A DNA stretch of 64,000 nucleotides from Tautonia marina (GTDB taxonomy: Bacteria; Planctomycetota; Planctomycetia; Isosphaerales; Isosphaeraceae): assembly GCF_009177065.1 (NCBI RefSeq), contig NZ_WEZF01000013.1:124001-188000 (forward strand), read 5' to 3'. Shown in pieces: positions 26,907 to 64,000 of the stretch (its first letter is position 1; each line of letters starts with the position of its first letter). Under the pieces are notes generated by a model, which searched no databases, had not been told where the DNA came from, and worked only from the letters and a program-made list of their open reading frames with translations. The position numbers and the translations under genes were made by a program.

Positions 26907-27500
26907 TCAGAGCTGCGAGTGACCGACGACTTCTTCGGGCTCGTCGTCCGCATCGACCACCTCGCCGGGGGCGGTGCGCACGGGACGGCTGGAGCGGACC
27001 AGGGCAATACGGCCGGTCCGGGCCAGTTCCCGGATGCCGTAGGGGCGCATCAGCTCGATAAACGCCTCGACCTTCGACTCCTGGCCACTGACTTCGATGA
27101 TCAGGTGCTCGGGGCTGACATCGACGATCCGGCCTCGGAAGTCCTGCACCAGGCCGCGCAGCTCGGCCCGACGCTCGGGAGAGGCATCGACCTTAATGAG
27201 CATCAGGTCGCGCTCGACGAACGCCTCTCGGGAAATGTCGATGACCTTGACAACCGTGACGATCTTCTCCAGCTGCTTGCGAACCTGCTCCAGCTGGCTA
27301 TCGTCGCCGATGACGACGAAGGTGATCCGGGAAAGGTTCGGGTCCTCGGTCTCTCCCACGGCCAGGCTGTCGATGTTGTAGCCTCGCGAGGCGAGCATGC
27401 CGGAAATGTGGGACAGGACTCCCGGCTGATTCTGCACCAAGGCGCTGAGCACGTGGCGATGGCGGTGGCGGTCGCGGGCCGGGCGGTTCGTCTCGGACAT
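26907..27500 (-). CDS. ilvN: acetolactate synthase small (regulatory) subunit
   Basis: 197 residues. The N-terminal ACT domain (about 16-90) is clear: HVLSALVQNQPGVLSHISGM, then ASRGYNIDSLAVGETEDPNLSR and the EQVRKQLEKIVTVVKVIDI helix. The C-terminal domain has ERDLMLIKVDAS and GRIVDVSPEHLIIEVSG with PYGIRELARTGRIALVR. The subunit binds valine and activates or feedback-inhibits the catalytic IlvB/IlvI subunit, which is not in this window. It is the first gene of a minus-strand series (ilvN, CRTAC1-like, remnants, ilvC). The acidic tail after residue 175 is not part of the usual family. Confidence 0.96.
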   Translation of the reverse strand: MSETNRPARDRHRHRHVLSALVQNQPGVLSHISGMLASRGYNIDSLAVGETEDPNLSRITFVVIGDDSQLEQVRKQLEKIVTVVKVIDISREAFVERDLMLIKVDASPERRAELRGLVQDFRGRIVDVSPEHLIIEVSGQESKVEAFIELMRPYGIRELARTGRIALVRSSRPVRTAPGEVVDADDEPEEVVGHSQL

Positions 27501-28043
27501 CGATTCCTCTTCGAATAAGTCGGGTGCGGTCGGTCCCGCGCAGGACGGCGATCCGGCCGGGAGGCCACAGCCCTCTCGGCTCGCCGAGTCGCCGGCCTCG
27601 GGCCGTCATCGCGGTTGATGGCTCGATTGAATGACCAGTCTACGGGGCCGCTTCCCGGCCTCGCAAGGCCGAGCGTCGCGCCCCCACCTCTCGACACCCC
27701 GGGACCGCTCGCGGTTCGTCCCGATCGAAGGCGCCGGGCCGCCTCCGTCCCGCGATCGCCCGGCAGGCTCGCAATCTGAAGGCAGGACGCGACAAGGCCC
27801 GGGGCTCAGGCCTGTTTCAGGCGCCAAAACCCCGATCACACGCCTCCGACACCCCCTCTCGCAACGAACGGAGCAGGGCCGAAAAATTCCAGAAATAAAA
27901 TTTTATCCCATTTCATTTCGAAGACTTACGAAAAACACGACTTGGAAGAAACGGCCCGCCAGACGGTTGAGTGGGTAGGAGTCCCGGGACGATGAACCAC
28001 GCGGTTCAGCCCAGGGCTCCCCACGGAACGGAGCCCATTTCCG
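27501..28043. other. 543-bp divergent intergenic region
   Basis: No gene was found. It should hold the ilvN promoter on one side and the promoter of the basic secreted protein on the other. Near its right side is an AT-rich block, unusual for this genome, containing the perfect palindrome ATAAAATTTTAT, a possible promoter or operator element for the rightward gene. Confidence 0.4.
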
Positions 28044-28355
28044 ATGATTCTCCCGACTCTGAACACGACCCTTCGGGTCCTGGCGTTGGCGACGGTTGTT
28101 GCCTTCATGGCCCCCAGCCCGGCCCAGGCCGGAGGGTTCGCGAGCCAGGTTGCCAAGAAGGTTGAGAAGAATGCCCGCAAGAGCATTGCGGCGGGCGAGA
28201 AGCGCTTCCGCAAGGGGGCTGCCAAGGCCGAGACCCGGGTCCGGAAAGGCGCGGCCAAGGCCGAGACCCGGGTCCGGAAAGGTGCGGCCAAGGCCGAGAA
28301 GCGTCTTCGGAAGGCATGGGAGGGCAAGCTTCGCCGCCCTATTTGCCGTTTCTAA
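28044..28355 (+). CDS. small secreted basic protein with RKGAAKAE repeats
   Basis: 103 residues. Signal peptide about 1-29 (RVLALATVVAFMAPSPAQA). The mature part is very basic: KKVEKNARKSIAAGEKRF, then three tandem 11-residue units RKGAAKAETRV, RKGAAKAETRV and RKGAAKAEKRL. Composition resembles the Lys/Ala-rich tails of histone H1-like proteins, but with a signal peptide the product should leave the cytoplasm and could bind anionic polymers such as extracellular DNA, polysaccharide or phospholipid. That is inference. The gene is followed by a very strong terminator, so it is its own transcription unit. Confidence 0.65.
   Translation: MILPTLNTTLRVLALATVVAFMAPSPAQAGGFASQVAKKVEKNARKSIAAGEKRFRKGAAKAETRVRKGAAKAETRVRKGAAKAEKRLRKAWEGKLRRPICRF
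28209..28307 (+). repeat. three tandem 33-bp coding repeats
   Basis: Three adjacent 33-bp units encode RKGAAKAE(T/K)R(V/L). The first two are nearly identical in DNA, the third diverges at its end. All are in frame in the basic secreted protein. Confidence 0.85.
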
Positions 28356-28405
28356 GTTTCGATCGGCCCACGCCGCCGCCGTGGCGACGGTGATGGGCCG
28401 GGAGT

Positions 28406-28435
28406 CGATGGAGAGGCCTGCGGGCCTCTCCATCG
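28406..28435 (+). terminator. strong hairpin terminator
   Basis: A perfect 13-bp stem (CGATGGAGAGGCC with its complement) and a 4-nt TGCG loop lie about 50 bp after the small basic protein. No T tract follows. Confidence 0.7.
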
Positions 28436-28583
28436 GCCGTCCGCAACGGACGCGAGACACCGCGGCCCGGGCATTCCATCGCCAACCGGCTGAATCCCCC
28501 CACGAGGCCGCCCCGGACACCACGAAGCATTCGCTCGATCCCGAACCCGACCGCACCCGGATCTTAACACGAAAGGACGATCG

Positions 28584-29063
28584 ATGATCATTTCGTTCCC
28601 GAATGTGCCCGCCCAGGTGATGGTGATCGCCTCGCTGCTCACGGGAGCAGTGGCCGCGCCGCCGAGCGACCTCCGCTTCGACCCCGACGCCCGAGATGTC
28701 GAGGTGCTGATCGCGATCCACGACCTGCATGATCGCGCCGACGACGGGGCGACACTGCTCGCGTGGTCGGTGCTGCATGAGTTCCTCACCGCCCTCCCGA
28801 AGGCGAGGGCGCCGGGAGAGGCGGTTTCGGAAGAAACCATCGCCACGCTGACGCAGAAGACGATCGAGATCGGCGAGGACGACTGGAATTCCCTCGACGA
28901 GAAGGTCGGCGCGATCACGAACCTCAAGCGGGCCTCGCTGCTGAAGGCGGCCTCGCTGTGCCATGAACGGTACACGAAGCACCGGAAATCGGCAGATGCG
29001 AGGCGATTCTGGGGAGGGCTCAAGGAGCGGTACGAGCAGATGGCGAATCGACTCCCCAGGTAA
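28584..29063 (+). CDS. small secreted hypothetical protein
   Basis: 159 residues. A hydrophobic N-terminus (VPAQVMVIASLLTGAVAAPP) looks like a signal peptide. The rest is helical and charged (DVEVLIAIHDLHDRADDG, LLAWSVLHEFLTALPKA, LDEKVGAITNLKRASLLKAASLCHERY in pieces), with a single Cys in the mature part. No family is recognised. GAAAGGA lies a few bases before the ATG. It stands alone between two hairpins, in a block of four genes that lack recognisable orthologues outside planctomycetes (judged by eye). Confidence 0.7.
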   Translation: MIISFPNVPAQVMVIASLLTGAVAAPPSDLRFDPDARDVEVLIAIHDLHDRADDGATLLAWSVLHEFLTALPKARAPGEAVSEETIATLTQKTIEIGEDDWNSLDEKVGAITNLKRASLLKAASLCHERYTKHRKSADARRFWGGLKERYEQMANRLPR

Positions 29064-29187
29064 GCCCTCCGAGCCCCGACCGGCCGTCCACGCGCCGTGA
29101 TCCGGGGTATGGCAATCTCGGGCGAGTGGTCGCCCAACGACGCGGGGTCCGGGACGCTCGGACCTCGCCAACCTTGGCAGGTGTGGG

Positions 29188-29227
29188 GTCCCCGGGAAGG
29201 TTCAGGAAACCGAACGTGCCCGGGGAC
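29188..29227 (+). terminator. hairpin after secreted hypothetical gene
   Basis: A perfect 9-bp outer stem GTCCCCGGG/CCCGGGGAC encloses a smaller GGTT/AACC stem. It lies between the small secreted protein and the zinc-ribbon gene. Confidence 0.55.
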
Positions 29228-29361
29228 TCGACAACTCAGCTCGCCCGTGCAATCAGCCCCGGATAGGCGCTCCAGGGGATTCGAGCCTGGACATACGATT
29301 CCGCTTCAGGATAAACATACACTTGGCGCATTCGCGCCGATTCGAACCGAGGAAACTGCAC

Positions 29362-30288
29362 ATGAACCACTGGCCATGCGAATGCGGCGGTAGGTTTTCC
29401 TTCGACCCTCCCATGGTCCACGGCAAGACGGCCTTCTGCAAGAAATGCAGACGCGTCTACGAACTCCAGGAGATCGCCGACGATCTGATCCGCGTCCAGC
29501 AGCTCTACTGGGACCCCGGCCGGGATCCGAGCCGGAAGGAGGCCGCGAAGGGGGACACGAAGGGCGGGGGCCCGGTGCCCGGCTCTCCCCCGTCCACCGG
29601 CAGCCCTCGCCTCCGCCGGTTCGCGGGGCTGGCCGCGTTCGGGATCGTCGTCGCGGCCTTGATGCTCGGCTTCGGCCGGAACGCCCCGGCCCCCTTCGTG
29701 CTCGAGAACGAGTTCGGCGACGAGGTCGAGATGCTCGCCGAGGGCCGGGATGTCTATGTCTTCACCATCGCGAGCTGGTGCGGCGGGAGCCGGTTGTTCG
29801 TCGAGACCGTCCTGCTGCCCGTCTCTCGGGAGATCGGGTCCGGCGCGGATCGCCCGCTGATCTGCCTCGTCTTCAGCGATGACGAATGGCCCAGTGCCGA
29901 GCGTTTCTTGTCGACCCAGGAACAGGTCGACCGGGCGAGGGCGTCGGCCAGGTCCGTCGATCCCGGCCTGGGCGAACGGTTCTACGACCCGAGGTGGGTC
30001 GTCGAGCACGTCGTCAACAGCGACATGCTCCTCTGCCGATTCAAGACCTGGAACGACCAGGACGCACAGCCAGGGGCCTATCCCCTCTTCTACTCGGCGG
30101 AAGACGCCTCCTGGAAGGACATCGTCCACGAGGATATGTTCTACCCCGACATCCAGGAACTCGTCGACCGATACGACCCGGAGGCGCTCGGCCGATTCGC
30201 GCGTGAGCTCGCCCGAAAGCAACGCTCGCAGGAGCTCCGGCTTCGCGAAGAATTCGATCGAGATCCCTTCTTCAATGGGTTCATGTAA
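29362..30288 (+). CDS. zinc-ribbon/TM protein with degenerate thioredoxin-like domain
   Basis: 308 residues from an ATG with GAGGA at 8 nt; an earlier in-frame start adds 13 residues of no character. Residues 6-29 form a likely zinc ribbon (C6xC8 and C26xxC29). A linker of about 50 residues leads to one membrane helix at 86-105 (FAGLAAFGIVVAALMLGFG). The outer domain begins NAPAPFVLENEFGDEVEM and continues VYVFTIASWCGGSRLFVETVLLPVSREI, like a thioredoxin fold, but the CxxC is reduced to WCGGS (one Cys, 140). The topology puts the ribbon in the cytoplasm and the Trx-like domain outside. It ends 64 bp before the sigma-like gene, probably one operon. The function is unknown. Confidence 0.75.
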   Translation: MNHWPCECGGRFSFDPPMVHGKTAFCKKCRRVYELQEIADDLIRVQQLYWDPGRDPSRKEAAKGDTKGGGPVPGSPPSTGSPRLRRFAGLAAFGIVVAALMLGFGRNAPAPFVLENEFGDEVEMLAEGRDVYVFTIASWCGGSRLFVETVLLPVSREIGSGADRPLICLVFSDDEWPSAERFLSTQEQVDRARASARSVDPGLGERFYDPRWVVEHVVNSDMLLCRFKTWNDQDAQPGAYPLFYSAEDASWKDIVHEDMFYPDIQELVDRYDPEALGRFARELARKQRSQELRLREEFDRDPFFNGFM

Positions 30289-30352
30289 CTTCAACCGATT
30301 TCCTTGCCCACCCGGTCCCGCCCGATCCCATTGAGAATTGCGAGGTGCCCCG

Positions 30353-31093
30353 ATGGTTGGAATTCAGTTCAAGCGGCCGGCGCTGGCCCTCTGGATCCTG
30401 CTTCTCGTCCCGGTGGCCTCCCCCTTCCTCGTCTCTGCCGACGATCGGAGGGGATACGACTACGGCGAGCCGGGGCTGGACGACTCCATCCTCGGCAGGC
30501 TCGAAGCGTCGTATCCCGGGGACGCGCAGCTGTTCAAGATCCAGGACCCCGGGCTGTATGCCTCGATCGTCCACCACACGGCCAAGAAATTCCTCAGCAC
30601 CCGTTACCGCCTCGACGCGGCGACGACCGCGGACATCGCCCAGGAGATCGTCACGAAGCATCTCCAGAACGACCTCTCGGAGAAATGTTCGACGCACAAG
30701 GAATTGATCACTTACATCAAAGCCGCCTGTCATTTCGAGAAGATCAATCTCGGCCGGAAACCGAGGCATTCCAGGGAAGTGCCCCTTGATCCCTCATCGA
30801 TCAACGACTCGATCGCGGGGGAACACGCCCAGACGCACGAGAAACGACTCGTCGATAGAGACATCCTGGAAACGCTCATCAGGCTCTCGAAGCTCAACGC
30901 GAACGAAAAGAAGGTCGTTCGCCTGTGTTATCTCAAGGAAATGACAGACAAGGAAGCATCAAAGAAGATCAATTTGAGTGGCGAGCGTGTGCGTCAGATC
31001 CGCCACGATGCGCTGCGCAAGCTCGAGGCAACGGCCCATTCCATGGGGTTGCAGTACGGCGTTGAACCAGAGGAATTGTTCCTGTGCTGGTGA
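30353..31093 (+). CDS. sigma-70-like protein with N-terminal signal/anchor helix
   Basis: 246 residues from ATG with GAGG at 7 nt (a TTG five codons earlier is possible). Residues 9-29 form a hydrophobic helix with a cleavage-like VSA-DD end. Then come ECF sigma features: region 2 at about 66-135 (LYASIVHHTAKKFLSTRYRL, AATTADIAQEIVTKHLQ, ELITYIKAACHFEK) and region 4 at about 176-226 (LSKLNANEKKVVRLCYLKEM, TDKEASKKINLSGERVRQIRHDA). The helix-turn-helix is intact. No ATG allows a soluble form that keeps region 2; the only in-frame GTG after the helix start lacks a ribosome site. A sigma factor with an export signal is unexpected, because the DNA-binding part would lie outside the cytoplasm. The upstream gene is also a membrane protein. 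Confidence 0.75.
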   Translation: MVGIQFKRPALALWILLLVPVASPFLVSADDRRGYDYGEPGLDDSILGRLEASYPGDAQLFKIQDPGLYASIVHHTAKKFLSTRYRLDAATTADIAQEIVTKHLQNDLSEKCSTHKELITYIKAACHFEKINLGRKPRHSREVPLDPSSINDSIAGEHAQTHEKRLVDRDILETLIRLSKLNANEKKVVRLCYLKEMTDKEASKKINLSGERVRQIRHDALRKLEATAHSMGLQYGVEPEELFLCW

Positions 31094-31545
31094 TGCTCGG
31101 CAGGCGGCTCAAGGGATGATCACCGGCCACGAGATCGGATCAATCAAAGGTGATTGGGTGCGGAGTCCCCTCCGGAAACGGCGGCGCGGCCGCCCGCTCC
31201 GGGCCGGCCTGGACCCCTTCCCGAAGGATGCCCGCCGGGCGTAGAATGCTCCGTGCGGCCGCGACGGCTCCCCAACGGTCGGGCCGAGGTGACCCGGAGC
31301 GGCCTTCGGAAGCGGGAGGGGAGCCCCCCCGGCACCGTTGCGGGCCCCGCGGCATCGCACTAAGATAGACCACCCCACACCGGCGCGAATCGAGGCGAAG
31401 GGACATCTCCGTGACGGCCGGGAATCGACCGCGATCACCCCGTTTCGCGGCCGTCCCGGCACCGGACGCGAGCCTCGTCGCGTCGGAGCGTCCACACCGA
31501 GACTGACCCACCCCGTGGCGTCGCGTGAAGGATGGCTCTGGCATC
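31094..31545. other. 452-bp intergenic region upstream of ABC exporter
   Basis: No gene or known RNA family was recognised. Several GC-rich inverted stretches occur, and a TAGAAT hexamer could be a -10 element for the exporter unit, without a convincing -35. Confidence 0.35.
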
Positions 31546-32274
31546 ATGACCACGCCCGTGATGATCGAGGCCCGAGGCCTCACCAAGCAGTTCGGTTCGT
31601 TCCTGGCGATCCGCGACGTGAGCTTCCAGGTTCCGAGCGGACAGGTCGTCGCCTTCCTCGGCCCCAACGGCGCAGGCAAGACGACGACGATGCGGCTCCT
31701 GACCGGCTTCATCGCCCCAACGCACGGCCAGGCATTCATCGCCGGGATCGACGTGCAGCAGGACCGGATCACAGCCGCCGAGCGGCTCGGCTACCTGCCC
31801 GAGAACGGACCGCTTTACCCCGACATGACCCCCATGGCGATCCTCGAATTCTTCGGCCGGGCCCGAGGCATGGGCTCGTCGGCCCTGAAGGATCGGATCG
31901 AGACGGTCGTCGGGCTTTGTTCCCTGTCGACGGTCGCCTACAAGCCGATCGCCAAGCTCTCCAAAGGCTACCGCCAGCGCGTCTCGATGGCCCAGGCGAT
32001 CCTGCACGACCCAGACGTCTTGATCCTCGACGAGCCGACCTCCGGCCTCGACCCGAACCAGATCAAGGGGGTCCGCCAGTTGATCCGAGACCTCGGCCGA
32101 TCGAAGACAATCCTCGTCTCGACCCACATCCTCCAGGAAGTCGAGCCGGTCGCCGACCGCGTCCTGTTCATCCACGACGGCCGCCTCGTCTTCGACGGCG
32201 CTCCAGCCGAAATGCGGGCCGGAGTGGCCTCGCTGGAGGAGAAGTTCTACCAGCTCACCGCCTCTCCCGCCTGA
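31546..32274 (+). CDS. ABC transporter ATP-binding protein (ABC-2/GldA-like)
   Basis: 242 residues. Complete ABC ATPase: Walker A GPNGAGKTT, Q-loop region YLPENGPLY, signature LSKGYRQR (SKGYRQ variant of LSGGQ typical of GldA/NatA-like ATPases), Walker B VLILDEPTSGLDP and switch STHILQEVE. It energises the permease-GldG protein encoded 175 bp downstream. This class moves unknown substrates. In Flavobacterium the homologous GldA/F/G set is needed for gliding, but planctomycetes lack that machinery as far as is known. Start at ATG; a GTG seven codons earlier is an alternative. Confidence 0.93.
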   Translation: MTTPVMIEARGLTKQFGSFLAIRDVSFQVPSGQVVAFLGPNGAGKTTTMRLLTGFIAPTHGQAFIAGIDVQQDRITAAERLGYLPENGPLYPDMTPMAILEFFGRARGMGSSALKDRIETVVGLCSLSTVAYKPIAKLSKGYRQRVSMAQAILHDPDVLILDEPTSGLDPNQIKGVRQLIRDLGRSKTILVSTHILQEVEPVADRVLFIHDGRLVFDGAPAEMRAGVASLEEKFYQLTASPA

Positions 32275-32449: not shown

Positions 32450-35197
32450 GTGACGACGATCCAGAACGAATCAACCCGGACGACCGCCCCCGAGCGGCCG
32501 GCGGGGGCCAGTGCCCTGGCCTTGCCTCGGCCGTTCGTGGTGGGAGCCGTCTGCCGGCGCGACCTGGCCCGCTACTTCACCAACGTGGCCGGCTATGTGT
32601 TCATCGTCCTGTTCATTGTCACAAGCTCGGTGGCTGCCTTCTGGCCCGAGGCCTTCTTCGCCAACAACCTGGCAACCCTCGGCCAGCTGAACGAGCTGAT
32701 GCCGTACTTGCTCCTGCTGTTTATCCCGGCGATCACCATGAGCGTCTGGGCCGACGAGCGGCGGCAAGGAACCGAGGAGCTCCTGCTCACCCTTCCGGCC
32801 CGAGACCTGGAGGTCGTGCTCGGCAAGTACCTCGCCGCGCTCGGCATTTACACCGCCGCGCTCGGCTTTCTGGCCTTTGGGCTGACGGTCGTGCTCGCCT
32901 GGCTCGGTCGGCCGGACCTGGGAGTCCTGCTCGCCACCTTCGTCGGCTACTGGCTGATGGGAGGGATGCTTCTGGCGGTCGGGATGGTCGCGTCGTTGCT
33001 CTCGGGCAATGTGACGGTGGCCTTCATCCTGGGGGCGCTTTTCTGCGCCGTGCCGGTGTTTGCCGACCTGCTCGGCGGGCTCTCGGGAGCGGGAGCGGCC
33101 CGGGTGATCGAGTCGGCCTCGGCCCCGTCGCAGTTCCGCGAGTTCGGCCGGGGCGTCGTGCCCTTCTCGGGCGTGCTCTACTTCGTCGGCCTTGCCGCGG
33201 CAATGCTTTATGTGAACGTCGCCCTCGTCGGCCGTCGTCACTGGGCCGGTGGTGAGCGCAGCGCGGGGCTGTGGGGACACGCGTTGGTCCGTATCGTCTC
33301 GGTGGTGGTCGTGGTCTTGAGCCTTCAAACCCTCGTCGCCCGAGCCGGCTGGCGGCCCGACCTCAGCGCCGAACGGCTCAACACCCTTTCGCGCGAATCG
33401 CGCCAGTTGCTCCGCGAGATCCCGAGCGATCGCCCCGTCTTCATCGAGGCCTTTTTCAGCCCCGAGGTGCCCCGAGACTACGTCGAGGCCAAGCAGAACC
33501 TGATTGGTTTGCTCAAGGAGTTCGCCGCGATCGGCGGCAGCAAGATCCAGCTGAACCTGATCGAGACCGAACGCTACGGCGAGGAAGCCCGACGCGCCGA
33601 GCAACAGTACGGCATCGTCCCCCGCCGCGTCATCACCATCAGCGCTGCGAGGCAAGGGTTTGATGAGATCCTCATGGGAGTCGCCTTCACCAGTGGCCCC
33701 GAACAGGTGGTCATCCCCTTCTTCGACCGCGGCCTGCCGGTCGAGTACGAGCTGACGCGGTCGATCCGCACGGTGGCCGGGGCCGACCGCAAAAAGGTCG
33801 GCATCCTCGACACCGACGCCGGCCTGCTCGGCAGCTTCGATTTCCGCTCGATGGCCTCGAACCGCGAGTGGCAGGTCGTCACCGAGCTTCGGAAGCAGTA
33901 CGAGGTAACCAGCGTTCCGGCCGATGCACCGATCCCGACCGACCTCGACGCCCTGCTCGTCCCGCAGCCGTCGAGCCTGACCGAGCCGCAGGTCGCCAAC
34001 CTCGTCTCCTACGTCGAATCGGGCGGGCCGACCCTGTTGTTCATGGACCCTCTGCCCCAGTTCGACCGCTCGCCGCAGATGTCCCTCGCCCCCACACAGC
34101 CGAAGGAGCAGCCCGGAGGCATGTTCGGCGGCGGCCAGCCGCCCGAGCCGAAGGGGGATCTGACCCCCCTTCTCGATCGCCTCGGCATCGACTGGCCGCA
34201 GACCGAGATCGTCTGGAACCCGTACAACCCGCACCCGAGATTCACGGAGCTGCCCCCCGAGTACGTGTTCATCACGCCCTCCAGCGGCGCGGCCGACGCC
34301 TTCAACCCGGACGAGCCGATCGCCTCAGGCTTGCAAGAGCTGATCGTCCTGTTCGGCGGCTACGTTCTGCCCCGGAGCGGAGCCGAAACCGACTTCACCC
34401 CGTTGCTTCGGACGAACGACGAGGGGGGGATCGCCCCCTTCGACAGCCTGGTCAGCCCCAGCTTCTTCGGCATGGGGATTGATCCCGACCGCGCCACCCG
34501 CCTGGCCACGAACCGCGCCTATACCCTGGCCGCCCGCCTTGAAGGCAAAGGACGGAGCGAAGGCGAAGGCGAAGGTGACGAGCCTGAGGGCAGCGTCAAC
34601 GCGATCGTCGTCATGGACCTCGACCTGATTTCCGACGCCTTCTTCCAGCTCCGCCAGGCTGGGTCGGAGGACCTGGAGTTCGACAACGTGGCCTTCGTGC
34701 TCAACTGTGTGGACACCCTGGTGGGTGATGACTCATTCATCGACCTGCGCAAGCAACGCCGACGCCATCGGACCCTCACGCGGCTTGAGGCCGCCGACCG
34801 CGCCTTCGAGGCCGATCGCCTGGCCCAGGAGCGCGAGGCCGAAGACGAGGCCGACGATCAGCTTGAGGCCGCTCGCGCTCGGATGAACGAGAAAATCGAT
34901 GCGATCGATGCCAACACCGAGCTGGACGACCGTACCAAGCAGGTCATGCTTGCCCAGGTCCGCGAGGTCGAGCAACGCCGCCTGAACGTGGCCGAGGCGA
35001 ACATCGAGGACGCCAAGCTCCGCAAGATCGAGGACAGCATTTCCGCCAAGGAGACGCAGCTCCGCGCCATCCGAGGCCAGGTCCGCATGGCCGCCGCCCT
35101 CGTCCCCGCCCTGCCCGCGCTGGCCCTTGGCATCGCCGTCGCCATCATCCGTTCCCGCCGCGAGAACCGCGGCGCCAACCCGAACCGATTGGCATGA
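32450..35197 (+). CDS. ABC-2 permease fused to GldG-like auxiliary domain
   Basis: 915 residues from GTG with AAGGG upstream. Residues about 25-275 are an ABC-2 permease with six hydrophobic helices (VAGYVFIVLFIVTSSVAAFW, LMPYLLLLFIPAITMSVWA, the DERRQGTEELLLTLP loop shared with GldF, VVLGKYLAALGIYTAALGF). After a further helix (about 285-300) comes the GldG-type DUF7088 segment (LSRESRQLLREI, PVFIEAFFS) and the ABC_transp_aux domain (VPRRVITISAARQGFDEILMG, VGILDTDAGLLG, ALLVPQPSSLTEPQVANLVSYVESGG). A coiled coil (about 775-870) and a last helix end the protein. In Bacteroidetes GldF and GldG are separate; here they are one chain. Confidence 0.92.
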   Translation: MTTIQNESTRTTAPERPAGASALALPRPFVVGAVCRRDLARYFTNVAGYVFIVLFIVTSSVAAFWPEAFFANNLATLGQLNELMPYLLLLFIPAITMSVWADERRQGTEELLLTLPARDLEVVLGKYLAALGIYTAALGFLAFGLTVVLAWLGRPDLGVLLATFVGYWLMGGMLLAVGMVASLLSGNVTVAFILGALFCAVPVFADLLGGLSGAGAARVIESASAPSQFREFGRGVVPFSGVLYFVGLAAAMLYVNVALVGRRHWAGGERSAGLWGHALVRIVSVVVVVLSLQTLVARAGWRPDLSAERLNTLSRESRQLLREIPSDRPVFIEAFFSPEVPRDYVEAKQNLIGLLKEFAAIGGSKIQLNLIETERYGEEARRAEQQYGIVPRRVITISAARQGFDEILMGVAFTSGPEQVVIPFFDRGLPVEYELTRSIRTVAGADRKKVGILDTDAGLLGSFDFRSMASNREWQVVTELRKQYEVTSVPADAPIPTDLDALLVPQPSSLTEPQVANLVSYVESGGPTLLFMDPLPQFDRSPQMSLAPTQPKEQPGGMFGGGQPPEPKGDLTPLLDRLGIDWPQTEIVWNPYNPHPRFTELPPEYVFITPSSGAADAFNPDEPIASGLQELIVLFGGYVLPRSGAETDFTPLLRTNDEGGIAPFDSLVSPSFFGMGIDPDRATRLATNRAYTLAARLEGKGRSEGEGEGDEPEGSVNAIVVMDLDLISDAFFQLRQAGSEDLEFDNVAFVLNCVDTLVGDDSFIDLRKQRRRHRTLTRLEAADRAFEADRLAQEREAEDEADDQLEAARARMNEKIDAIDANTELDDRTKQVMLAQVREVEQRRLNVAEANIEDAKLRKIEDSISAKETQLRAIRGQVRMAAALVPALPALALGIAVAIIRSRRENRGANPNRLA

Positions 35198-61453: not shown

Positions 61454-64000
61454 ATGTCCAGGCCTTCCCGATCACGATCCATCGGCCGCCATCGCCCGAA
61501 GCACATCGAGCGAACCCGCCTCCAGCTCGAACCGCTCGAGCCCCGAACCATGCTTTCGGCCGATCTGCCGATGCCGGTGGCCGTGTCGGGAGCGGTGGGA
61601 GCCGAGGTCCTGGCCCTGGAGATTGCGTCTCCCTCCGCCTCGGCGCACGAGCGATTCGTGAACCGGATCGCCACGGCCCTGGTCGATCAGCCGCTGGCCG
61701 ATGCCGTACAGGACCGGCTGGTCGGCTGGCTCGATCGGGGCATGTCCCGGGAGCGAGCGGCGGCGATGGTCTTGCAGTCAGAACCGGCTCGCCGAGTGGA
61801 AATTCTCAACACGTATGAGAAACTTCTCCACCGTGAACCAACCGCCGGCGAGTTTCAGTTCCACCTGAGCGAGACGGCCAGGGGTGCCGACCAGCTCGCC
61901 GTGATCTGGCGGGTGATCGGCTCGGCCGAATATTTCCAGAACCGCGGAGGAGGCACACACGAGGGGTACCTCAACGCGATGGCCGACGACCTCTGGCAGC
62001 GGAGCCCGACCGAGACCGAAACCGCCCGATGGGTTGGTGCGCTTGACCGGGGGGTTCCCCGCTCGCGTGTCGTGGCCGACCTGCTGAGGAGCCCGTCGTA
62101 TCGGGAAGCAACGGCGGTCCGGATCGCCTCGATCGCCACCCCCGGCCGCGTGGACGAGCAACTCGCCGCCCGTGTTTCGACTGCTTGGCAAGGGCCCCGG
62201 GCCTTGACCCGGGCCAAGGCCCTGATGCTTGGGTCCGCCCCCTACCTGGATTCGATCCTCGCCACTCCGTCCCTCCCGCCAGTCTCCTCATTGCCCGAGT
62301 CCGAACTCGCCTCCCCGCCGCCGGTCGGTTATCCGTTTACCCCTGAGTTCAGCCTGTTGACGAACTGGAACCCGATTGCTCCGGGGGGCGTCGACCTGTT
62401 CTCGCTCGCCTCCTTCGGAGCCTCGCCGGACGGAAACTACTGGGTCGGCACCATCGCGTCGGGCCTGTTCGCATACGATCCGGTGACGATGATCTCGACC
62501 AGCGTCTGGAGCGGCGCAGCCAACTCGATCGCGCCCATCTCGAACACCGAGGCCTGGCTGATCGGTTCGGATCAATGGCAGGAAGGGCCGCTGTTCATCG
62601 CCTCGATCACCAGCTCGGGCACGCTCTCGACCGTCGCCGACCTGCCGGGGGGTGACTCGCCGTCTCAGATCGGCGCCTCGGCCGATGGCATCGTTTGGGT
62701 CCTGGGAGGTTCGGGGACGGCCTACTCGTATCAAGAGGCATCCGACTCGTGGTCGGTCATTCCCAATAACGGATTCTCGATCAAGCAACTCGGAATCGGT
62801 TCGGCGTCGAACATCTGGGCGATCGGCAGCGATGCTCAAGGAAGCGCGGTCTTGCTCTCGTGGTCGTCGGGCGGGGGCTGGGCTGTTGATTCCGAGTTCA
62901 GCGGCACCACTCCTACCGAGGTGTCGGCGGCGGCCGACGGCTCGGTCTGGGTCGTGGCCGATTCCGTACTCTTCCTTCGTCCTCCGGGAGGATCGTGGGC
63001 TGCCGTCACGAAGCAGACCCCGCCGGGCATGTTCTTCGGCATCGCGGCCAACGACCGAAACCGCGTGCTGGCCTCCTTCGACTCGGCGCAGGTGCTTCAG
63101 GTCCTCTCCTTTGGCCTGCTCGACCGGCCGGCCACCCCGTTTCCCGAGGTGACCGATCAGTGGGACGCCGGATACGCCGCCATCAACGCCGGCCTCGGTA
63201 TCGTCGCGCCGGGCGGTGTCCGGGCGCTTTACAACGACGCAATCGCCACACTGAGCGGTTATCTCAACAAGATTGAGTCTACCTTGCCCGGTCAGGAGAT
63301 CCCGCGACCGCCCGATGTGTCCCCGACCAACTGGGATGCCATCAAGAGCCAGCTCATCAATGAACTGAACGACGTGATGGGCGTCAACAACCTGTACACG
63401 CAGCTCACGACCCTCAATTCGGACATCGGCACGGTCACGAACGACCGGCTTGTCGCCGCCGGAACCCTCGTCGCTCTGACCCAGAGCGAGCAGCAGAACG
63501 ACACCGCCTCGCTCGCGATTGTCGGCGTGTTCGAGGCTGCCCTTGCGGCCATGGCAGCAGCTTTCAGTGGCGGAGCGGCCATTGGCGCCGCGGCCATCGC
63601 CTCGGGGATCGACAACCTCATCGGCGACCTGACCAATCAGCCGAACCCCGGCCCCGATACGAAGCTCGAAGAAACGTATGCGGCGCTCTTGACCACCCTC
63701 GGAAACCTCTTCACGGACAATGTGAAAACCTTCGCTCAGCAGCAAACGACCATCGTCGGTGATTACGGGATGCTCTCGACCCTCGGTACGGCCATCTCCT
63801 CCGGGCTCTGGGACTGGGAAGACGTCACCACCAGCGCGATCGAGCAGGCCACGTCCAACAGCTACGACCTGTTCTTCTATCAGACGCTAATGCCGATCAA
63901 GTGGCAGATTGTCTACATGGAAGATTACATTTGTGATCTCTATGTCTGCAATCAGCTCAAACCGCCGACCTATGATCTTTACGAGGTTGTTCTCCAGCAA
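61454..64000 (+). CDS. LEPR-XLL protein with DUF4214 and propeller domains (3' end outside window)
   Basis: 849 codons are visible to the right edge, with no stop. The start MSRPSRSRSIGRHRPK leads to LQLEPLEPRTMLSA, the planctomycete LEPR-XLL motif (residues about 26-35). Residues 75-215 match DUF4214-type helical modules: ILNTYEKLLHREPTAGEFQFH, VIGSAEYFQN and WVGALDRGVPRSRVVADLLRS. Residues 265-560 are a tectonin-like beta-propeller (GASPDGNYWVGTIASGLFAYDP, GASADGIVWVLGGSG, AAADGSVWVVADSV). After about residue 600 the chain is helical with a Gly/Ala-rich stretch (AALAAMAAAFSGGAAIGAAA). DUF4214 domains are found in surface-layer-associated enzymes. Likely a large surface protein. Confidence 0.85.
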   Translation, partial: MSRPSRSRSIGRHRPKHIERTRLQLEPLEPRTMLSADLPMPVAVSGAVGAEVLALEIASPSASAHERFVNRIATALVDQPLADAVQDRLVGWLDRGMSRERAAAMVLQSEPARRVEILNTYEKLLHREPTAGEFQFHLSETARGADQLAVIWRVIGSAEYFQNRGGGTHEGYLNAMADDLWQRSPTETETARWVGALDRGVPRSRVVADLLRSPSYREATAVRIASIATPGRVDEQLAARVSTAWQGPRALTRAKALMLGSAPYLDSILATPSLPPVSSLPESELASPPPVGYPFTPEFSLLTNWNPIAPGGVDLFSLASFGASPDGNYWVGTIASGLFAYDPVTMISTSVWSGAANSIAPISNTEAWLIGSDQWQEGPLFIASITSSGTLSTVADLPGGDSPSQIGASADGIVWVLGGSGTAYSYQEASDSWSVIPNNGFSIKQLGIGSASNIWAIGSDAQGSAVLLSWSSGGGWAVDSEFSGTTPTEVSAAADGSVWVVADSVLFLRPPGGSWAAVTKQTPPGMFFGIAANDRNRVLASFDSAQVLQVLSFGLLDRPATPFPEVTDQWDAGYAAINAGLGIVAPGGVRALYNDAIATLSGYLNKIESTLPGQEIPRPPDVSPTNWDAIKSQLINELNDVMGVNNLYTQLTTLNSDIGTVTNDRLVAAGTLVALTQSEQQNDTASLAIVGVFEAALAAMAAAFSGGAAIGAAAIASGIDNLIGDLTNQPNPGPDTKLEETYAALLTTLGNLFTDNVKTFAQQQTTIVGDYGMLSTLGTAISSGLWDWEDVTTSAIEQATSNSYDLFFYQTLMPIKWQIVYMEDYICDLYVCNQLKPPTYDLYEVVLQQ

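Follow-up and report, generated by a model that had tools for sequence, protein, structure and literature searches.

The extra segment and its genes

In the window (the whole 64,000-bp stretch of Tautonia marina DNA that was analyzed), a segment of about 3.7 kb, 27733–31471, lies between the ilvN gene on the minus strand and an ABC ATPase gene on the plus strand. Genome comparison revealed no counterpart of it at this place in two other genomes of the genus, G003 and G002, where the distance from ilvN to the ABC ATPase gene is 0.7 and 0.3 kb, respectively, versus 3.9 and 3.8 kb here. G003 retains a 42-base match near 27637–27678, and the alignment with G002 reaches 27732. A third genome of the same genus (G001) is uninformative on the empty site: its ABC gene was found, and ilvN was unmatched in the 11.5 kb taken. 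The downstream gene at 32450–35197 was matched in all 45 genomes of the bacterial family (97% in G003). When the segment itself was used in a DNA search, matches elsewhere did not exceed 55 bases, and 11 of the 45 genomes, its own included, contained any (best six or fewer candidates per genome). A mobile element was considered and rejected: the repeats found in 27300–31700 (two direct ones, both short, and an inverted pair) do not lie at the edges of the segment; the check for an integrase covered the seven proteins scanned against Pfam.

Four genes, starting at 28044, 28584, 29362 and 30353, are located in this segment on the plus strand. By eye, each of their products has a signal-like N-terminus or, in the case of 29362, an internal membrane helix. 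The first gene (28044–28355), taken like the second from the ORF list and scanned against Pfam, encodes a 103-aa protein with a signal-like N-terminus, recognized by eye, that ends in AQA and is followed by Lys/Ala/Arg repeats. These repeats resemble a histone H1 tail. The second gene (28584–29063) encodes a 159-aa protein with a hydrophobic N-terminus, signal-like by eye, that is not preceded by a basic residue. Judged by eye, the product of the third gene (29362–30288) has a zinc ribbon at the N-terminus, a single hydrophobic helix farther inside and a part resembling thioredoxin (SWCGGS, GAYPLFY). The first-pass annotation had proposed this membrane zinc-ribbon gene as a regulator of its sigma-like neighbor. 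The proposal gained nothing from our searches: no Pfam or NCBIfam family, and hence no recognized anti-sigma domain, was found at E ≤ 1 (the protein was scanned from 29365, one codon past the ATG at 29362), and the protein matched itself alone among the 45 family genomes. An anti-sigma role is thus unsupported.

The fourth gene (30353–31093) is the subject of this work. It encodes a protein of 246 aa in which a signal-peptide-like N-terminus precedes a sigma2–sigma4-like domain, as judged from the ORF list, Pfam, TIGR02937 and a structural model.

The sigma-like ORF: domain, start and N-terminal segment

Residues 178–224 of the product are matched by PF04545 (Pfam, E = 3.8e-13), and TIGR02937 covers residues 71–225 with 48.8 bits (cut-off 42.9). 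The ECF-like sigma regions with a helix-turn-helix described at first pass are thus borne out by these two families, while Sigma70_r2 was absent among the Pfam matches at E ≤ 1; region 2 is therefore assigned from TIGR02937 and a low-confidence model. According to the same two sources the protein combines sigma2 and sigma4 and lacks sigma3, which is the sequence layout of an ECF (group 4) sigma factor.

The AlphaFold2 model, computed from a single sequence, is of low overall quality (pLDDT 57.9), sigma4 being its better part. Sigma2-like helices occupy residues 66–134 (30548–30754, plus strand; pLDDT about 60–76 in blocks 61–130), and sigma4-like helices with the helix-turn-helix occupy residues 169–230 (30857–31042, plus strand). 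The first-ranked Foldseek match of the model, and the sole one below 0.001, was the ECF sigma chain 6dv9_F, sigma L (E = 9.7e-4). Nearly all VIA rows were sigma factors as well (SigR region 4: Z 9.8, rmsd 1.9, 65 aligned), and at least two of the fifty were other DNA-binding proteins (1xsv, 1s7o). Sequence matches in the PDB were sigma factors, all of them weak (best E = 0.0038). The closest matches from other genomes, of which the best has E = 3.4e-8 at residues 131–226, resemble, by eye, primary- or FliA-type sigmas.

An ortholog of the ORF was found in none of the collections. The search of 45 family genomes at 1e-6 returned the ORF itself alone, as did that of 397 genomes of the class at 1e-8 (best six or fewer candidates per genome); among 392 genomes of the phylum at 1e-7 (best seven or fewer candidates per genome), the ORF and a primary-type sigma, L021, matched at residues 131–226, were returned. 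Searches of genome contigs, viral contigs, and plasmids and phages with tblastn likewise revealed no ortholog. At the relaxed level of 1e-3, 33 of 40 relatives matched the ORF, the best E besides its own being 9.8e-7, and those that were read are ordinary sigmas. We tentatively consider the ORF, as part of the explanation preferred below, to be a real, lineage-specific gene that is a singleton in the collections searched.

The frame opens after a stop codon at 30332–30334 and contains the in-frame starts TTG 30338, ATG 30353 and GTG 30413. The ATG is preceded, at a distance of 5 nt, by the ribosome-binding-like site GAGGTG (30342–30347, a 6-base match), in agreement with the first-pass view that the best ribosome site places the helix in the protein. 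It had also been stated that a soluble form with region 2 cannot start at any ATG, and this is correct; however, a non-ATG start exists, since GTG 30413–30415 (codon 21) is the sole other in-frame start between the ATG and region 2, and the next one is a TTG at codon 118. Initiation at the GTG would remove most of the helix.

The N-terminus begins with MVGIQFKR, continues with a hydrophobic run (approximately residues 10–29) up to FLVSA, and is followed by DDRR. The most hydrophobic 19-residue stretch, LALWILLLVPVASPFLVSA, has a Kyte-Doolittle value of 2.23, versus a maximum of 0.17 past residue 40, so that the hydrophobic helix after the KR pair and its VSA-DD end, both seen at first pass, were confirmed. 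Codons 1–29 (30353–30439, plus strand) thus encode an n-region with K7 and R8, a hydrophobic segment and a V-S-A|D-D border, i.e., the sequence features of a Sec signal with a signal peptidase I site (cleavage rule applied by eye). Under a first-order Markov null derived from the window, none of 20,000 open 40-residue N-termini reached 2.2. Counted over all six frames and with real genes included, 1,958 starts in the window have 60 open codons after them, and 32 of these reached this value; for ATG starts alone the count was 10 of 585. Among the 60 frames of the genome that match TIGR02937, the ORF itself counted, it ranks first in the hydrophobicity of the segment ahead of the sigma domain (15-residue hydropathy 2.39), followed by L090 (1.93) and L049 (1.73).

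These data bear on a misplaced start, with which the gene would encode an ordinary soluble ECF-type sigma read from GTG 30413, the hydrophobic stretch being upstream DNA or part of a minor product. The position of this GTG is suitable for that, and weak ribosome sites are common among the other sigma frames of the genome (some of these rows were strand-misread). However, the site upstream of the GTG matches the anti-Shine-Dalgarno sequence in 3 bases against 6 at the ATG; GC3 is already 0.9 in 30383–30442, a stretch of 20 codons only that includes codons ahead of the GTG; and so hydrophobic an extension would rarely arise by chance, as the above counts indicate. Conservation of the same layout in another family (see below) weakens this account in general, although less so for the ORF itself. 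We consider a misplaced start improbable.

It can also be supposed that a foreign sigma domain became fused, through an insertion, to a signal peptide of local origin, giving a chance fusion or a decaying orphan with no maintained function. The failure of all searches to find an ortholog is in line with this, as are the lack of the segment at this place in two relatives and the short matches elsewhere in the family. The composition of the gene also changes: GC3 is 0.88 in codons 1–110 versus 0.71 in codons 111–246 (Fisher p = 0.001), and GC is 0.645 versus 0.534, the cut at codon 110/111 having been picked after the profile was known. This shift, however, sits within region 2, away from the border between helix and domain. 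The frame, moreover, reads through with no frameshift or stop, its helix-turn-helix is intact, its GC3 bias is in frame and its ribosome site is good, and the independent family described below shows that such a layout can be useful. A fusion of this kind is therefore hardly the probable origin of the gene. It should be mentioned that both GC and GC3 fall towards the 3' end of the sigma gene, over 30683–31093.

A conserved family of helix-bearing sigma-like proteins

The same genome encodes another sigma-like protein, L090 (G000:C23:7282–7959), which belongs to a widespread family. In this family an N-terminal basic stretch is followed by a hydrophobic helix and a sigma2–sigma4-like domain. 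L090 was matched at E ≤ 1e-6 in all 45 genomes of the bacterial family, and the match spanned the helix in 44 of them (E = 8.6e-55 or better); the only genome with no helix-spanning match is 64% complete. A hydrophobic stretch was present in all 30 N-termini inspected from these 44 genomes, with 19-residue hydropathy of 1.24–1.72.

In total, 78 loci of the L090 family (L139–L216) were found in named records, those of Tautonia, Singulisphaera, Aquisphaera, Paludisphaera, Limnoglobus and Gemmata and many MAGs among them; the named strains include Singulisphaera acidiphila DSM 18658, Tautonia sociabilis, Limnoglobus roseus and Gemmata sp. IIL30. One locus (L187), cut by a contig end, was excluded from the counts, and the remaining 77 are mutually related and not independent. 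All 77 contain a hydrophobic stretch ahead of region 2 (15-residue hydropathy at least 1.51, median 1.93; the level of 1.5 was fixed after the values were known). The 12 residues flanking the helix carry a net positive charge before it in 75 of the 77 loci and after it in 10. An A-x-A motif near or after the helix was detected in 69 of 77 loci, which is weak evidence as the stretch is alanine-rich. With a wider L090 profile, 102 of 248 genomes of the class gave a match at 1e-12, paralogs counted. An earlier profile, A1, built on an alignment of 25 of the 30 fetched loci, had returned its own genome only from 343 genomes of the phylum (best eight candidates per genome scored), and we treated this result as a false negative.

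For the profile, the 78 loci were reduced at 85% identity to 61, and for A2 to 60. Two cysteines (L090 positions 56 and 73) are invariant in all 61 aligned helix-form rows. Since the loci were picked by the patterns CW[RK]NA[RH]LD and RVSDEKYK, conservation of these motifs is partly due to selection; neither of the invariant cysteines is included in the patterns. The DNA-recognition helix is also kept almost unchanged, part of this being biased by the scan pattern RVSDEKYK. Library matches of the family were limited to the general TIGR02937 (60 of 60 aligned members) and sigma region 4, PF04545 (54 of 60, at 1e-3).

The AlphaFold model of a Tautonia member (pLDDT 83) retrieved almost only rows of sigma-factor or transcription-complex structures. 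In this model the hydrophobic stretch, which is of low confidence, continues into the first sigma2 helix at residues 28–63 (L139:5082–5189), and thus it could be a structural helix. If such a continuous helix were a membrane anchor, it would join the sigma domain rigidly. When the ORFs of five reference loci (7 kb; the family itself and overlapping frames set aside) were compared with 57 loci, no neighbor was common to more than 20 of them, and no anti-sigma factor or protease was recognized by eye.

The ORF of the window was tested as a member of the L090 family and rejected: it scored 12.9 bits, 13th of the 60 sigma frames, with hhalign probabilities of 11 and 20. The YC...DC cysteine pair is missing in it, its only cysteines being at positions 112, 126, 192 and 245.

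A paralog of L090 (L086, L221–L240) co-occurs in the same genomes, and 21 of its 43 rows were inspected. In none of the 21 does hydropathy reach 1.5 within the 60 residues that precede region 2 (median 0.69); for the whole N-terminal part the median is 1.37 and three of 21 reach 1.5. A motif Y.P.[VIL]E.[LMI]E..R[LF][LF] following basic residues was revealed in all 21 paralogs and in none of the 78 helix-form loci; it also reads as Y.P.xE.LEALRLLSG. This motif is similar to RRLxxExLExRxLLA, a planctomycete cell-surface export motif (PMC8567305), except that the arginine is usually one place later. PF07595 was not listed at E ≤ 10 for any of the eight paralogs scanned against Pfam; in the genome it gave 18 weak matches at E ≤ 1, none above the cut-off. 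The best of them, at 61517–61564 (plus strand), lies in a 919-aa open frame of the window (22.2 against a cut-off of 25.5 bits). The first L090 cysteine is replaced by leucine in 21 of 21 paralogs, and the second is kept in 14. Given the three sequences that reach 1.5 and the export-like motif in all 21, we dropped the paralog as a clean cytoplasmic control. As a lead, the paralog may be exported too, by a signal different from that of the helix form, if the resemblance of the motifs is meaningful; our weighing of the explanations given below was left as it stood.

Possible location of the sigma fold and comparison with known systems

Sigma factors are generally taken as cytoplasmic. The first-pass annotation had offered three explanations of a sigma-like protein with an N-terminal helix, namely a tethered sigma, a repurposed fold and a misplaced start. 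The layout of the L090 family makes a tethered or an exported fold a serious option, and the choice among the three has been partly narrowed. Because this family is independent of the ORF, is widely conserved and has the same layout, we consider it most probable that the helix is part of the ORF product, and since the design recurs in Planctomycetota an error of the start is unlikely. The combination of a helix and a sigma domain thus looks real. As the ORF falls outside the L090 family and has no cysteine pair, the support from that family is by analogy.

The reading that we prefer, if tentatively and at somewhat less than even chance, is that the product is Sec-targeted and its sigma fold lies beyond the cytoplasmic membrane, either free or attached to it. 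The basic residues before the helix and the zero net charge after it suggest that the N-terminus would remain in the cytoplasm, with the sigma fold across the membrane. The signal-peptide-like segment would send the protein to the Sec pathway, and the exported sigma2–sigma4 fold would either be freed by cleavage after VSA or be kept by a signal anchor. Transcription initiation would be impossible there, and the fold would have taken on another role, of which the binding of nucleic acids or proteins in the envelope is the most plausible, acting beside the three other exported- or membrane-looking products of the segment. The presence of the 28044–28355 protein beside an exported-looking protein with a helix-turn-helix hints at binding of nucleic acids in the envelope.

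In the L090 family, the association of the cysteine pair with the helix form would fit a disulphide bond in an oxidizing compartment. The near-unchanged DNA-recognition helix of this family, as expected of a working sigma, argues against export, and so does the continuity of the hydrophobic stretch with the first sigma2 helix in the model of the Tautonia member. A more general proposal, according to which Planctomycetes export sigma folds, in one or more conserved families (there perhaps with a disulphide lock) and separately in this orphan, and use them to bind nucleic acid or envelope partners outside the cytoplasm, is conceivable, and we regard it as more doubtful than not.

Alternatively, the protein could be a tethered dormant sigma, with the helix oriented N-out/C-in and the sigma domain kept in the cytoplasm until a membrane protease frees it in response to a signal, as in the case of pro-sigmaK. 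There are precedents for such release: pro-sigmaK is cleaved inside the membrane within its N-terminal pro-sequence (PMC11486902), and Prc and RseP process the ECF sigma IutY, whose membrane extension is C-terminal (PMC8999054). The helix-turn-helix and the sigma domain of the ORF look intact, as would be required, and the residues FLVS, close to where the helix ends, are reminiscent of the cleavage region of pro-sigmaK (PMC11486902), a weak resemblance noticed post hoc. However, the charges of the ORF (K7 R8 before the helix; DDRR, net 0, after it) fit an N-in/C-out signal, the predominantly positive charge before the helix in the L090 family points in the same direction, and VSA|DD resembles a signal-peptidase site. 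A tethered sigma is therefore rather unlikely, although it is the strongest of the alternatives to export.

Whether the sigma fold is exported, as we prefer to think, or tethered, the occurrence of the L090 family and of an unrelated ORF in one genome would imply that a sigma is kept at the membrane in a novel manner or that a sigma fold is used outside it. We found no description of a sigma factor carrying a signal peptide in the open-access literature. It is suggestive only that sigma factors of Tuwongella immobilis were recovered in detergent fractions in a proteome study (PMC8567305). HasS is termed in passing a membrane-bound sigma factor; it inhibits the sigma HasI (PMC3621798) and on this ground we read it as an anti-sigma.

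Comparison with related and known systems revealed that: (i) the ORF and the L090 family share the basic stretch, the hydrophobic helix, the sigma2–sigma4-like domain and the host genome, whereas they are unrelated beyond the sigma fold, and the invariant cysteines, the RVSDEKYK motif (partly selected by the scan) and the conservation are confined to L090; (ii) with group 4 (ECF) sigmas, as defined by TIGR02937, the ORF shares its two-domain organization, but it adds the signal-peptide-like segment and its region 4 fits PF04545 best; (iii) with Bacillus pro-sigmaK, the substrate of SpoIVFB, it shares an N-terminal membrane-inserting segment on a sigma factor, whereas pro-sigmaK has a cytoplasmic sigma domain and an N-terminus on the opposite side of the membrane (PMC11486902), the opposite of what the charges of the ORF predict.

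Membrane extensions have been described in several ECF sigmas. They are C-terminal in IutY and in ECF48, ECF52 and ECF53, and N-terminal, with three to four helices and DUF2275, in some ECF36 (PMC8999054). According to the passages on these groups, such extensions consist of fused parts of the anti-sigma type that are C-terminal or comprise several helices (PMC8999054), while the ORF has one N-terminal signal-like helix. Closer in origin are planctomycete ECFs of the former groups ECF87–89, which bear N-terminal extensions with a regulatory role yet to be understood (PMC8103513). They share with the ORF both the phylum and the N-terminal extension, and in the passages dealing with them the extensions are not called signal peptides (PMC8103513). 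The L090 family may already be classified among these N-terminally extended ECFs, and a helix of the kind described here could explain some of the extensions of planctomycete ECF sigmas (PMC8103513).
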